From the NCBI GenBank assembly GCA_943356445.1, contig CALREZ010000007.1, positions 1 through 45,701 of the forward strand: DNA of 45,701 nt, written 5' to 3'. The DNA is from Candidatus Nomurabacteria bacterium. GTDB taxonomy: Bacteria > Patescibacteriota > Minisyncoccia > Phycocordibacterales > CAIJYI01. Made by a program: the position numbers and the translations under genes. Shown piece after piece: positions 30,516 through 36,331 of the stretch. The notes below the pieces were generated by a model. It saw only the letters and a list, made by a program, of their open reading frames with translations. It was not told the origin of the DNA and ran no database searches. Each line of letters opens with the position of its first letter. The stretch's first letter is position 1.

Positions 30516-32294
30516 TTATTCAAGAACCGCTTTTATTCTTCTCACTCCTGCAGAAACAGCCTCCTCCTTTAGGATCTTAAAATGGCCCAGCTCCGACGTG
30601 TTCTTTACGTGAGGGCCTCCGCAGAGTTCTATGCTCCATGTTTTATCGCCTTCGCCGATGGTATACACTCTGACAATATCGCCGTACTTATCGCCGAATA
30701 AGCCGATGGGATTTCTTTTTCTTGCCTCTTCAATCGGCAGGTCTTCATACTTTACCGGCAAAGCTTCTTGTATTTTTTCATTCACCAGATCTTCCGCTTT
30801 TTTCTTCTGCTCATCGGTCATTTTTTCGCCGTAAGAAAAATCAAAACGCATGCGCTCCGCCGTGATATTGCTTCCTTTTTGGAACACTTGCTCGCCGAGA
30901 ACCGTTCGCAATGCTTTTTGCAGAAGATGCGTCGCCGTATGATACCGAGTAGAAATTTCCGAAGTATCGGCAAGCCCGCCTTTGAATTTCTGTTCGGAAC
31001 CGACGGCGGAAATTTCTTTATGTTTTTTAAACTCTTCTTGAAAGCCTGTTTTATCTACCGAAATGCCTCGCTCATCCGCCATCTCTTCAGTTATTTCAAT
31101 GGGGAAACCATAAGAAGAAAACAGACCAAAAGCTTCCGCTCCCGATATTTCTTTTTTTCCTTCCGCAATTTTTCCAAACTCTTTCATTCCTCTCTCAAGA
31201 GTCAGTCGGAATTTCTCTTCTTCTTTTTTTATTTCTTCTCTGATCCGAACAACATCAGAAATCAAATTCGGGTAGGCATTTTGGTAAATCTGTACAACGG
31301 TTCCGACGAGTTCTTCCAAACCGCTTTCCATTTGAAGAGAATGAGACAATCTCACCGCACGCCGCAAAAGCCGTCGCAAAATATATCCGCGATCGGTATT
31401 TGACGGAATAACGCCGTCCGCAATCATAAATACGGAAGTGCGCAAATGATCGGCAATAATTCGTTCCGGTCGTCCGTCGCTGCTTTTTTCTTTTTTCTTT
31501 TTACTTTTTACTTCGTTTACTATCGGTGCAAGCAAATCCGTATCATAGATATTATTCACTCCCTGAACAACCATAGTGACACGTTCCAGTCCTGATCCGG
31601 TATCCACGTTTTTCTTTGCCAATTTCCCTATCACTTTTCCGTCTTTCTTTTCGTACTCCATAAAAACATCGTTCCAGATTTCCACCACTTTCTGTTCGTC
31701 GTCGGCTTTCATATAATCTTCTTTCGTCATATCACCCAAACCATTTTCCGTAACGTCATAAAACATTTCAGAGTCGGGACCGCAGGGGCCATTATCGCCC
31801 GGGCTCCACCAGTTGGATTTTGCGCTCATGAAATAGATCCGATTTTCCGGCAGGTAGTTTTTCCAAATTTCAAAAGCTTCATTATCTCTGGGAGCGTTCT
31901 CGTCGCCTTCAAAAACCGTTACATACAAACGGCTCACATCAAGACCTAAACCCTCTTGTTTGTCTGTCAAAAATTCAAAACTCCATTTAATGGCCTCTTG
32001 TTTAAAGTAATCGCCGAGCGACCAGTTGCCGAGCATTTCAAAAAAAGTCGCATGCGTATTGTCGCCGATTTCGTCTATATCTACCGTTCGCACGCATTTT
32101 TGAGAGTTGGCAAGTCTCGTCGATCCCGACGGATGCGTCGCCCCCAAAAGATACGGAACTAAAGGCTGCATGCCGGCAGTATTAAAAAGCACCGAAGGAT
32201 CATTTTCAGGAATGAGCGAAGCGCTCGGAATGATCGTATGCCCACGCTTCTCAAAAAAAGCTAAAAATCTCTGTCGTATTTCGTGTGATTGCAT
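30516..32294 (-). CDS. alaS: Alanyl-tRNA synthetase lacking the C-terminal (C-Ala) domain
   Basis: 592 residues against about 875 in E. coli. The aminoacylation domain (MQSHEIRQRFLAFFEKRGH, SLIPENDPSVLFNTAGMQPL), the tRNA-recognition part and the editing domain (ATHLLQKALRTVLG for HxxxH-type ligands; CGGPHVKNTSELG) are present. The protein ends at GHFKILKEEAVSAGVRRIKAVLE, so the oligomerisation/DHHA1 part is absent. Short forms like this occur in reduced genomes, including CPR. TTGAGA-17-TATAAT lies 7 bases before the ATG, which predicts a leaderless mRNA. Confidence 0.97.
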   Translation of the reverse strand: MQSHEIRQRFLAFFEKRGHTIIPSASLIPENDPSVLFNTAGMQPLVPYLLGATHPSGSTRLANSQKCVRTVDIDEIGDNTHATFFEMLGNWSLGDYFKQEAIKWSFEFLTDKQEGLGLDVSRLYVTVFEGDENAPRDNEAFEIWKNYLPENRIYFMSAKSNWWSPGDNGPCGPDSEMFYDVTENGLGDMTKEDYMKADDEQKVVEIWNDVFMEYEKKDGKVIGKLAKKNVDTGSGLERVTMVVQGVNNIYDTDLLAPIVNEVKSKKKKEKSSDGRPERIIADHLRTSVFMIADGVIPSNTDRGYILRRLLRRAVRLSHSLQMESGLEELVGTVVQIYQNAYPNLISDVVRIREEIKKEEEKFRLTLERGMKEFGKIAEGKKEISGAEAFGLFSSYGFPIEITEEMADERGISVDKTGFQEEFKKHKEISAVGSEQKFKGGLADTSEISTRYHTATHLLQKALRTVLGEQVFQKGSNITAERMRFDFSYGEKMTDEQKKKAEDLVNEKIQEALPVKYEDLPIEEARKRNPIGLFGDKYGDIVRVYTIGEGDKTWSIELCGGPHVKNTSELGHFKILKEEAVSAGVRRIKAVLE

Positions 32295-32301
32295 AAGACC
32301 G

Positions 32302-32330
32302 ATTATATCCGAAAATCCGTTTTTTCTCAA
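32302..32330 (-). promoter_or_regulatory. alaS promoter (leaderless)
   Basis: Minus strand TTGAGA (32325-32330), 17 bases, TATAAT (32302-32307), 7 bases to the ATG. The -35 box adjoins the T run of the preceding terminator. Confidence 0.8.
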
Positions 32331-32337
32331 TAAAAAA

Positions 32338-32359
32338 GCCGCCACAAAAATGCGGCGGC
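32338..32359 (-). terminator. Terminator of the 142-residue orphan gene
   Basis: Stem GCCGCC/GGCGGC with a 10-base loop. On the minus strand it is followed by TTTTTTATTGAG. Confidence 0.8.
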
Positions 32360-32375
32360 GATACTTAACCCTTTT

Positions 32376-32804
32376 TTATTTTTTGAGAAGCAAACCGATA
32401 AGTTCCTCAAGTTTTTGCGCAGTTTCAGGCGAAACCATCGCTTTCATGGCTCCGTAAAGAACATCTCTTTCGGTTTTCATTCGTTTTTGCAGACCTCTCA
32501 CCTCGCGTTTTTGTTCTTCTATTGCCGCGATGAGTTCAGGAAATGCCCGTTCAAAAGACATGACCGTGTAATTAACAGAAGGCTCCCGATTCTGCCATTC
32601 TTTCGGCGCGCGATCATCCCATATTTCAGCCCTGCAGGGACTGTCAGTAAGGCCCCCTGTTATTACAGAACCCACGTAGTCTCCTGTTTCTTTTAAAACC
32701 CCTCTCCAAATTCCGGTCGGTCTGTTCACATCGTTTACAAAAATAACGACGAGGGCATTTATGTTTGGTGTTTCAAAAACTTTTGATTTCAATGTACCGT
32801 TCAT
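32376..32804 (-). CDS. 142-residue orphan protein
   Basis: Not recognised. The N-terminal two thirds is mixed alpha/beta (NALVVIFVNDVNRPTGIWRGVL, YVGSVITGG). The C-terminal third is a helix with coiled-coil character (ELIAAIEEQKREVRGLQKRMKTERDV). AAAAGGAG precedes ATG 32804, so the long upstream frame is not used. It has its own promoter (32892-32920), an 80-base leader with an inverted repeat (GCGCGTCTTC and GAAAAGACATTGCGC) and a terminator. Confidence 0.8.
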   Translation of the reverse strand: MNGTLKSKVFETPNINALVVIFVNDVNRPTGIWRGVLKETGDYVGSVITGGLTDSPCRAEIWDDRAPKEWQNREPSVNYTVMSFERAFPELIAAIEEQKREVRGLQKRMKTERDVLYGAMKAMVSPETAQKLEELIGLLLKK

Positions 32805-32891
32805 TTTGACTCTCCTTTTTTGCGCGTCTTCTCCTGTCGGGAAAAGACATTGCGCGAATAGTACCGCCGCGGAAGAGCAACGGTAATTTGT

Positions 32892-32920
32892 AATATAACA
32901 CATATTAATAAATAAAGCAA
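32892..32920 (-). promoter_or_regulatory. Promoter of the 142-residue orphan gene
   Basis: Minus strand TTGCTT (32915-32920), 17 bases, TATATT (32892-32897). Confidence 0.65.
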
Positions 32921-32931
32921 TAGTTCCTAAA

Positions 32932-32955
32932 AAACGGGAACCAAAGTTCCCGTTT
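32932..32955 (-). terminator. Terminator of the 101-residue orphan gene
   Basis: Stem AAACGGGAAC/GTTCCCGTTT, loop CAAA; TTTTTTAGG follows on the minus strand. Confidence 0.85.
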
Positions 32956-32959
32956 ATCT

Positions 32960-33265
32960 TTACTTGTATCCAACGACGCATTCTTTGTCTATTCTTTCGG
33001 AAAGATTGCATACATTGCCGTCTTTGGTCAATTTCGCTCCTTTCCGATATTCGACACCGCAATACCGGAGCAAAGCGCCAAGATACGTCCCCTTTGCCAC
33101 GAGTACGGTGCGCAAACCTTTTTCACCCAGATCCAGGGTTACCCAAAGCTGTTTTTCCGCGCGGATTACGTTCCATAACCGCCAGTTGGTTTCAGTTCCT
33201 TTATTTCTTTTTGGTAATCTCCGAACAACGTCCATGAGATTATCCAAATCGCTCATGGTTTTCAT
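32960..33265 (-). CDS. 101-residue orphan protein
   Basis: Not recognised. It has a basic, probably soluble alpha/beta sequence (MDVVRRLPKRNKGTETNWRLW, QLWVTLDLGEKGLRTVLVAKG) and three cysteines in the second half. TTGGAG lies 9 bases before ATG 33265. It has a near-consensus promoter (33300-33328) and its own terminator, so it is a separate expression unit between two larger genes. Confidence 0.8.
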   Translation of the reverse strand: MKTMSDLDNLMDVVRRLPKRNKGTETNWRLWNVIRAEKQLWVTLDLGEKGLRTVLVAKGTYLGALLRYCGVEYRKGAKLTKDGNVCNLSERIDKECVVGYK

Positions 33266-33299
33266 TTTGTTTCTCCAAAAGTCAAAAAATTCTATTTGT

Positions 33300-33328
33300 A
33301 TTATAACATTATAAATAATGTAAGTCAA
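33300..33328 (-). promoter_or_regulatory. Promoter of the 101-residue orphan gene
   Basis: Minus strand TTGACT (33323-33328), 17 bases, TATAAT (33300-33305). The -35 box overlaps the stop codon region of the DedA-TsaC gene. Confidence 0.8.
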
Positions 33329-34479
33329 GGATTTTTTCTCACCCCTTCGCGTATGATAACTATTTCCCCTCCCGTTATTTTAAGTATGGTGGACGGTTCG
33401 GAAATAATTTTTCCGCCATCTTCATAAAAATCAACTTCGTTTTCAAAGTATTTTTGCGCTTCTTTTATAGTAACAGCGGGCAATTCTCCTTCATAATTCG
33501 CAGAAGGGGCGGCAAGCGGCCCGGTTTCTTTCAATATCTCCAGCAATTCCGGATAATCAGGCAAGCGAAAAGCCAATGTTTTTGTTCCGCGGTGCAGATA
33601 TTCAAATTTTGGATTGTCGCATGACAAAATGATACTCACTTTTCCCGGCCATGAATTTTTGGCCAACTTAACTTCCTCGTTATTTTCAGAAATTCCAAAA
33701 AGTCCAAGATCGACGATACTGCCGATAAGAATAATAAACGGCTTCTCAGGATTCCTCTTTCTTATTTCATACATTCTCCTCACTGTTTTTTCAGAAAGTG
33801 CCTGTCCTACCAATCCATAGATCGTATCGGTCGGAAGAACTCCGATTCCTCCCTCTTTGAGAATTTTAATGACTCCGTCTTTTCCGACATTCTTTTTTGC
33901 CAAACCGGAAAGCCACATTTTAAAAACGGGAAAAACCGATACGAGAATGATTGCTCCGACGATAGGCAGAAGATACGTATCTATGCTAGGAATAGTTTTT
34001 CCAAGATAATATCCGAGGATGGGCAGACCGCAGGCCCACAGCATCCCGCCGACGATATCGGAAAAAAGAAAACGTCGGTATTCCATTTGTCCGACTCCGG
34101 CAATCGGGGGGACAAAAGCGCGAACGACGGGAACAAAACGCGCGAGAACGATAGAACGGCTACCATGTTTTTCAAAAAACTTTTTTGCTTTCTCTACGTT
34201 TGAACGTTTGAAAAAAAACGATTCCTCTCTTTGGAAGAGTTTTTCTCCCGCTTTCCTTCCGAGAAAATATCCGACATTATCACCCAAGACCGCGCAGAAA
34301 AAAACGAGCGGGACCAAGATCCAGATGTTCAGAAAACCGGCAGAGGCAAGCACTCCAGCGGTAAAAAGCAAACTGTCTCCGGGAAGAAAAAAACCAAGAA
34401 GCAATCCCGACTCCGCAAAAATGATAGCCGAGACACCCAAGTATCCGGCGGTTTTTATAAGAGAAATGATATCAAACAT
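33325..34479 (-). CDS. Fusion of a DedA-family membrane protein with TsaC/YrdC (threonylcarbamoyl-AMP synthase)
   Basis: 384 residues in one uninterrupted frame. Residues 1 to about 190 are a DedA/VTT-type membrane domain: AESGLLLGFFLPGDSLLF, GDNVGYFLGRKAG, RFVPVVRAFVPPIAG and GYYLG, with a last membrane helix at about 168-190. Residues from about 200 are a TsaC/Sua5/YrdC domain: GIGVLPTDTIYGLVGQAL, EIRKRNPEKPFIILI (the K-x-R region), LAFRLPDYPELLEIL and GPLAAPSANYEGE. TsaC makes threonylcarbamoyl-AMP for tRNA t6A, which TsaD (at 35126) then uses. No internal methionine suits a separate TsaC start. TACGAT lies 6 bases before the ATG. Confidence 0.92.
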   Translation of the reverse strand: MFDIISLIKTAGYLGVSAIIFAESGLLLGFFLPGDSLLFTAGVLASAGFLNIWILVPLVFFCAVLGDNVGYFLGRKAGEKLFQREESFFFKRSNVEKAKKFFEKHGSRSIVLARFVPVVRAFVPPIAGVGQMEYRRFLFSDIVGGMLWACGLPILGYYLGKTIPSIDTYLLPIVGAIILVSVFPVFKMWLSGLAKKNVGKDGVIKILKEGGIGVLPTDTIYGLVGQALSEKTVRRMYEIRKRNPEKPFIILIGSIVDLGLFGISENNEEVKLAKNSWPGKVSIILSCDNPKFEYLHRGTKTLAFRLPDYPELLEILKETGPLAAPSANYEGELPAVTIKEAQKYFENEVDFYEDGGKIISEPSTILKITGGEIVIIREGVRKNP

Positions 34480-34504: not shown

Positions 34505-34536
34505 AAGAGGTCATTCCGTGACCTCTTTTTCTCTCT
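34505..34536. terminator. Terminator overlapping the end of the 52-residue gene
   Basis: Stem AAGAGGTCA/TGACCTCTT, loop TTCCG. The minus-strand continuation is CTTTTTTTTGTG; the gene's stop codon lies in the stem. Confidence 0.75.
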
Positions 34537-35048: not shown

Positions 35049-35055
35049 GCAATAT

Positions 35056-35088
35056 GACCCGCACTCTTCGGAGCGCGGGTCTTTTTTT
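35056..35088 (+). terminator. Terminator of the tiny membrane-protein operon
   Basis: Stem GACCCGC/GCGGGTC with an inner CTC-TTCG-GAG hairpin, then seven T. Confidence 0.9.
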
Positions 35089-35090
35089 CC

Positions 35091-35118
35091 TTTACTTATC
35101 CCAAAAAGACCATATAAT
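35091..35118 (+). promoter_or_regulatory. tsaD promoter (leaderless)
   Basis: TTTACT (35091-35096), 16 bases, TATAAT (35113-35118), 7 bases to the ATG. It begins directly after the preceding terminator. Confidence 0.7.
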
Positions 35119-35125
35119 CATCTTT

Positions 35126-36331
35126 ATGAACATACTCGCCATAGAAACATCGTGCGACGAAACCGCGATAAGCATTATTGCGACGGAAGAAAATTCCAGA
35201 AAAAAATCGGTAACCATTCTCGCGAATGTCGTTATCTCGCAGATAGAAATTCATAAACCCTATGGTGGCGTTTTTCCCGCGCTGGCAAAAAGAGAGCATG
35301 CGAAGAATCTGGTACCGGTACTCGCGCAAGCGTTGAAAAAATCCGGGATGCTGCAAGAAAAAACAACAGAAAATATCTCCGAAGAAAAACAAACGGGACT
35401 CTCCTCTCTTCTTGAACGCGAACCGGAATTATTGGCTGCGCTTTCGGATTTCATCCCCGCGACAAAAACTCCGAACATTGATTACATCGCTTTCACTCAA
35501 GGGCCCGGCCTTCCTCCCGCCCTCTGGGTCGGACTCAACTTTGCGCGCGCACTCGCACTTCTTTGGAATAAGCCGCTCATCCCCGTCAATCATATGGAAG
35601 GACATCTTTTTTCTTCTCTGGTGAACGGAAAAGAAAATATCCCGCAAGAAATGCAAAATCCGAAACTTCCAACTTTGGCATTGCTCATTTCCGGCGGACA
35701 TACGGAAATTGTTCTTATGAAAGACCTTTTTCAATACGAAGTGGTCGGAACCACCCGCGACGATGCCGTCGGCGAAGCATTTGATAAAGCGGCGAGAATT
35801 CTCGGTCTTCCCTATCCCGGAGGCCCGGAGATTTCCAAACGCGCCGCGAATTTCCGCAACGGCGGAAAAATTGCAAACGGAAAGTATAAACTCCCGCGGC
35901 CAATGCTGCGCTCGGACGACTTTGATTTTTCCTTTTCCGGAATTAAAACTGCCGTTCTGTATATGGTACAAAAGATAGAAGAAATGACCGAAGAGATCCG
36001 CGAGGAAATTTGTTACGAATTTGAAGAGGCTGCCGCCGAAACGCTCATTTCCAAAACGCTGCGCGCCGCGGAAAAATATGATCCGAAAACCATTCTGATG
36101 GGCGGCGGGGTTTCCGCAAATTCCCATCTCCAAGAAATTTTCAAAAAAACGTTTCAAGAAAATTTTCCCGATGCGGAGATTTCCATTCCCGAAAAAGATT
36201 GCTCTACCGATAATGCTCTCATGATTGCCATCGCCGGATACCTGCGCGCGCTCCATGATCCGAAAAGCATCCTTTCTCCCGATTCGGAAAAAGTGAGGGA
36301 AATGCAAGCCGACGGAAACTTGGCGCTTTAG
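35126..36331 (+). CDS. tsaD: tRNA threonylcarbamoyladenosine synthase subunit TsaD
   Basis: Transfers the threonylcarbamoyl group to A37 of ANN-decoding tRNAs. 401 residues: ILAIETSCDETAISII, NHMEGHLFSS (metal-binding histidines), LALLISGGHTEIVLM, GEAFDKAARILGLPYPGGP, DFSFSGIKTAV, MGGGVSANSHL and STDNALMIAIAGY. It is longer than the usual 335-345 residues because of an insertion of about 45 residues (SGMLQEKTTENISEEKQ to IPATKTPN) before the DYIAFTQGPG motif. An in-frame upstream ATG at 35054 would precede the promoter. The partner TsaC activity is encoded upstream as the DedA fusion; TsaB and TsaE are not in the window. Confidence 0.97.
   Translation: MNILAIETSCDETAISIIATEENSRKKSVTILANVVISQIEIHKPYGGVFPALAKREHAKNLVPVLAQALKKSGMLQEKTTENISEEKQTGLSSLLEREPELLAALSDFIPATKTPNIDYIAFTQGPGLPPALWVGLNFARALALLWNKPLIPVNHMEGHLFSSLVNGKENIPQEMQNPKLPTLALLISGGHTEIVLMKDLFQYEVVGTTRDDAVGEAFDKAARILGLPYPGGPEISKRAANFRNGGKIANGKYKLPRPMLRSDDFDFSFSGIKTAVLYMVQKIEEMTEEIREEICYEFEEAAAETLISKTLRAAEKYDPKTILMGGGVSANSHLQEIFKKTFQENFPDAEISIPEKDCSTDNALMIAIAGYLRALHDPKSILSPDSEKVREMQADGNLAL

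Follow-up and report, generated by a model that had tools for sequence, protein, structure and literature searches.

A DedA domain and a TsaC domain in one reading frame

The window (the whole stretch of DNA analysed here, 45,701 nucleotides) carries on its minus strand, at 33325..34479, a continuous open reading frame of 384 amino acids with an ATG start, in which a complete COG0586-type DedA (residues 1-196) and a complete TsaC/YrdC domain (residues 198-384) are joined in frame. Pfam identifies both, in each case with the profile covered essentially end to end: the VTT/DedA core (PF09335, VTT_dom; residues 32-157; 34009..34386, minus strand) scores 78.5 bits (E 7.8e-22, cut-off 33.9), and the TsaC/YrdC domain (PF01300, Sua5_yciO_yrdC; residues 205-379; 33343..33867, minus strand) scores 145.9 bits (E 1.2e-42, cut-off 25.1). 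Among NCBIfam models, TIGR00057 (L-threonylcarbamoyladenylate synthase) is matched at 140.0 bits, above its cut-off of 123.2, and the DedA model PRK10847 at 158.8 bits, below its cut-off of 236. An earlier reading of the window from its letters alone (the sequence-only reading) had proposed a single frame with these two domains, and both the exact frame and the domain limits are borne out.

The junction LSGLAKKNVGKDGVI (codons 190-204; 33868..33912, minus strand) comprises the end of DedA, the linker and the former start of TsaC. When the two pieces are aligned with the separate genes of a relative, DedA is kept to approximately residue 196 (...AKK) and TsaC begins at residue 198, the position of the old start codon; almost no sequence has been lost from either gene at the joint. 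The genome to which the window belongs (G000; 1.05 Mb, 34 contigs, rated 100% complete) contains three further VTT proteins above cut-off. The sequence-only reading had raised the question of a separate soluble TsaC: a genome-wide search of this assembly returned no second PF01300 protein, and the fusion is the only one.

Upstream of the fusion lies a conserved tsaD-fmt-hpf block, with tsaD on the plus strand at 35054..36331 (probable start 35126; it passes the NCBIfam cut-off). Downstream, past one or two small ORFs, is a block with alaS (30516..32345, minus strand).

The fusion is shared by two species

The fusion is present, at 87% identity, in G001, another species of this uncultured Parcubacteria genus, where linker and flanking genes are also the same; the G001 fusion is matched by a public contig, JAPLYL010000007.1, from a Parcubacteria MAG from Lake Pavin. 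Over 381 shared codons the two fusion genes differ at 225 nucleotides, with no indel or stop; dN is 0.083, dS is 1.14 and dN/dS is about 0.07. The fusion is under purifying selection, across the joint too: over the 15-20 codons of the junction the two species are separated by one conservative change only (D201E), and dN of the linker is 0.024.

These data bear on whether the two genes were joined by an assembly or sequencing artefact. The sequence is likely to be metagenome-derived, but joint, frame and linker are the same in the second species at 87% identity, and the flanks of the two match over 17 kb or more; an artefact thus has next to no probability. A missing stop or frameshift between the domains, named in the sequence-only reading as the way in which the fusion might fall, is not credible, because the same joint is present in two independently evolving sequences. 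The fusion is real and correctly described – a new architecture made from two known families and not a new system – and is probably an ordinary gene fusion.

Origin at a rearrangement breakpoint

In the third genome of the genus (G002) dedA and tsaC are separate genes on different contigs. The G002 DedA (69% identical, ending KMWFSKK*) is on contig C22; the stand-alone TsaC (61% identical, starting ...MRNMDIIEIL) is on contig C41, immediately before alaS, which marks the ancestral tsaC locus. Close relatives with two separate genes had been held to speak against the fusion: such a relative exists, and its separate genes make the fusion lineage-specific without undoing it. The tsaD-fmt-hpf block is also on C22, 27 kb from dedA. 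Since the tsaC-alaS and tsaD-fmt blocks, which are far apart in G002, meet at the fusion, the joint is a synteny breakpoint. The proximity of tsaD, taken at first sight to bring two steps of t6A synthesis together, is genuine as a distance (about 575-650 bases from the fusion, in divergent orientation); given the arrangement in G002, it is only a by-product of the same rearrangement.

Comparison of the sequences shows the two genes to be separate and unlinked in G002 and joined in G000 and G001. On the TsaC tree the window sequence groups with that of G001 (100/99), and then with the stand-alone TsaC of G002 (89/94). The fusion is shown to be recent and lineage-specific, and to have arisen at the breakpoint. 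As to the path, a rearrangement in the common ancestor of the two species would have brought a dedA of COG0586 type immediately in front of tsaC at the tsaC-alaS locus; the dedA stop codon would then have been lost, joining the two frames, although the exact mutational steps may have differed. The locus offers a clean natural case of two housekeeping genes that fused where a rearrangement broke synteny, and the genus still contains the unfused ancestral state.

Several minor features lie around the fusion. Two small ORFs between the fusion and alaS (32376-33328) have no Pfam match and no equivalent in the tsaC-alaS interval of G002; G001 has a counterpart of one of them (43% identity). By eye, a near-consensus sigma-70 promoter (TTGACT-17-TATAAT, about 33300-33330) overlaps the stop codon of the fusion and faces the next small ORF, and a terminator-like bidirectional hairpin (AAGAGGTCA-TTCCG-TGACCTCTT, 34505-34527) stands just upstream of the fusion start.

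Distribution of the architecture

Searches with the whole protein covered samples of the order (297 genomes), the class (384) and the phylum (380), in all about 1,000-1,030 different Patescibacteria genomes. Among the matches listed from these samples, none beyond G000 and G001 spans both domains; a match that did so would head such a list, although very diverged or fragmented cases could escape. Searching with both halves together, as had been suggested for gauging frequency, thus places the architecture in two species of one genus. Nor are the two genes neighbors in relatives: dedA was found beside none of 19 tsaC loci, and tsaC beside none of 26 dedA loci (about 1.5-2 kb either side). Two apparent further cases were rejected. 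The match in G950 (query 103-380) is a TruB-TsaC fusion, and the long TsaC frames of family f219 carry a different, C-terminal transmembrane (TM) domain. A literature search on DedA with threonylcarbamoyl and fusion returned nothing relevant.

Fusions of TsaC and DedA in Patescibacteria

Both TsaC and DedA are often fused in Patescibacteria, to many unrelated partners. TsaC is joined to TruB in G950 (L068; 399 aa), a combination of two tRNA modification enzymes (tRNA pseudouridine-55 synthase and TsaC); to an Ogt-type DNA-binding domain in G476 (G626 is similar by sequence); to TsaE, as TsaC-TsaE (several families) and as TsaE-TsaC (L161, L163, L164, L165, L170, L178, L180); and to a C-terminal TsaB-like domain (L175, L179, in G969 and G832). 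For these t6A-pathway fusions Pfam was run on L161, L164, L175 and L179, and the others were assigned by sequence resemblance. There are also a LigT-like-TsaC fusion (weak Pfam match) and a Nudix-Sua5 fusion. Membrane segments occur with TsaC in three forms: a C-terminal TM and extracytoplasmic part in four genomes (family f219; L069, L070, L071, L072), a TM followed by DUF4015 (glycosyl-hydrolase-like) in G798 (L168), and two N-terminal TMs in G216 (L084). DedA is joined to triosephosphate isomerase in one genome (G508, L074) and to a HAD phosphatase in three genomes of one genus (L077, L078, L079; G179, with G213 and G243 similar by sequence). Among PF01300 frames tabulated from the phylum sample, 56 of 150 are 290-700 aa long, a count that includes genuine Sua5 and untranslated frame extensions. 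Literature searches on TsaC/TsaE fusions in CPR, and on CPR gene fusions, returned no report of these architectures.

All of these resemble the window fusion in being complete genes joined in frame, in the same phylum and by the same type of event; they differ from it in the partner, which lies inside the t6A pathway for TsaE and TsaB and outside it for the rest. Because partners are both related and unrelated to the pathway, fusion alone is weak evidence for a link between DedA and tRNA modification, and the pattern is a warning against 'Rosetta Stone' inference in Patescibacteria.

The DedA half and membrane topology

Residues E23, D35, R114 and R120 of the fusion are intact and correspond, at a constant offset of 16, to E39, D51, R130 and R136 of YghB (the Pfam match of the VTT core begins shortly after E23). 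In YghB the acidic pair on the first reentrant helix (E39, D51) and the arginine pair on the second (R130, R136) mark COG0586 UndP flippases; COG0586 fusions named in the same work are those to rhodanese and PAP2 (PMC10127716). The DedA half thus shares with COG0586 DedA/UptA-type UndP flippases (PF09335) the four essential residues, in the register of E. coli YghB, and a complete core, and differs from them in bearing a C-terminal enzyme domain.

Hydropathy places the last hydrophobic segment at about residues 168-186, followed by a basic tail KMWLSGLAKKNVGK. By the positive-inside rule this tail would place the TsaC domain in the cytosol, a topology predicted from hydropathy and charge; the membrane tether of TsaC proposed in the sequence-only reading is supported to that extent. 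An AlphaFold prediction of the fusion from a two-sequence input gave a mean pLDDT of 31, too low for the model to be used.

The TsaC half and its t6A context

TsaC is the enzyme that opens the synthesis of t6A, an essential tRNA modification. In the TsaC half the PTDT motif is intact, as is the SxN motif (P325-S326-A327-N328), while the KxR site reads R240-K241-R242: of the tetrad KxR...SxN the window TsaC retains SxN and has Arg240 in place of the lysine. The proline before SxN (Pro325) is of the Sua5 type, yet there is no SUA5 domain, and the protein carries neither the TsaC signature (Thr/Ser) nor the Sua5 signature. In a published survey the tetrad served as a family filter, sequences without it being removed, and a proline before SxN was a rare exception among single-domain TsaC, in a few other bacteria (PMC10321239). 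Patescibacteria TsaC with RxR would consequently fail the tetrad filter of published surveys. In a non-random sample, 30 of 100 Patescibacteria sequences have RxR instead of KxR, all with PSxN; besides the window, RxR was recorded at L003, L004, L068, L085, L175 and L179. On the TsaC tree the change from KxR to RxR needs several origins. The existence of sole-copy TsaC proteins that lack this lysine bears on how the TsaC/Sua5 active site is currently defined.

Compared with stand-alone TsaC or the TsaC domain of Sua5 (PF01300, TIGR00057, COG0009), the window domain shares the whole catalytic domain, PTDT, SxN and occurrence in single copy; it differs in its position behind a membrane protein, in RxR, in the Sua5-type proline without a SUA5 domain, and in belonging to an uncharacterised Patescibacteria clade. 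A YrdC domain inside a larger polypeptide is found likewise in HypF, TobZ, Sua5 and viral TsaN. In those proteins the partner domains have a part in carbamoyl transfer or in regulation of the enzyme; DedA is not known to be linked to this chemistry.

TsaD and TsaE are present in the window genome; across G000-G003, TsaD is found in all and TsaE in three of the four. A separate TsaB was not detected in these four genomes (PF00814 and TIGR03725 matched only TsaD), being either absent or too diverged, and the t6A pathway of the genus may thus itself be unusual. Because the KxR lysine is an arginine, the activity as threonylcarbamoyl-AMP (TC-AMP) synthase is presumptive.

Function of the fusion

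The best reading is a membrane-anchored TsaC of near-neutral origin. The product would be a single uncleaved polypeptide: a DedA module, the last TM, a basic cytosolic tail and then an intact cytosolic TsaC. To judge from conserved residues and single copy, it would make TC-AMP for t6A as the sole TsaC of the cell while tethered, and DedA would keep a transport role of its own, probably related to undecaprenyl phosphate; TC-AMP could diffuse to TsaD. The tether would probably involve no special coupling, and the fusion may have been tolerated because both halves fold independently. Taken whole – a genuine lineage-specific fusion with a membrane-tethered sole TsaC, a DedA with its own role and probably no special coupling – we consider this account likely.

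The account presupposes that the YrdC half is a TC-AMP synthase. Were it instead a paralogue resembling YciO, with a different role (perhaps one connected with rRNA), Arg240 at the tetrad lysine would be as expected from E. coli YciO (RIRQ), and the domain does fall in a well-supported Patescibacteria clade (100/97) in which none of the six reference sequences included is found. This is quite improbable: in the tree the domain does not group with E. coli YciO, which sits on a long branch, among solved sequences Sua5 and MTH1692 are closer to it than YciO, and SxN is intact where YciO has SLM. Moreover, it passes the TIGR00057 cut-off and is the only PF01300 protein of a genome having TsaD and TsaE, and among TsaC domains with a fused TsaB-like domain RxR is found too, an argument that t6A synthesis can proceed with it. 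The account further takes the polypeptide to remain whole. Two products could come from the one frame if TsaC were freed, without a tether, by proteolytic cleavage in the linker or by initiation at an internal codon such as ATG188 or TTG193; G000 and G001 share both codons, and synonymous divergence within the gene is lowest at the junction (changes at 5 of 30 codons whose residue is identical). However, since the separate DedA of G002 has ATG188 as well, this codon needs no other explanation, and the low synonymous divergence is non-significant once all windows are scanned (permutation p = 0.13), so that it was rejected as a signal of an internal start or of regulation. We regard two products as fairly unlikely.

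The membrane-anchored TsaC of near-neutral origin must lastly be set against selection for the tether itself, in which anchored TC-AMP synthesis, or coupling to the transport state of DedA, would be useful (e.g. for t6A near membrane-bound ribosomes). Fusion and linker have been kept between two species at dS of about 1.1, and TsaC has apparently gained membrane segments several separate times (the four f219 genomes, G798, G216), a recurrence notable enough for tethering to be kept as a rival. Against this, the membrane partners are mutually unrelated, most TsaC fusions are soluble (TsaE, TsaB, TruB, LigT, Nudix, Ogt-like), the fusion is restricted to two species, and dedA and tsaC are nowhere linked among the other loci checked (19 tsaC, 26 dedA). 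The same restriction, missing linkage and unrelated partners leave without support the proposal of the sequence-only reading that lipid handling is coupled to tRNA modification. Selected tethering is thus unlikely, and its fullest form – functionally membrane-anchored TC-AMP synthesis, with DedA activity or membrane state modulating t6A, as one instance of repeated TsaC tethering in Patescibacteria – is very doubtful. Were the tether functional, it would connect lipid transport in the envelope with a universal tRNA modification for the first time.
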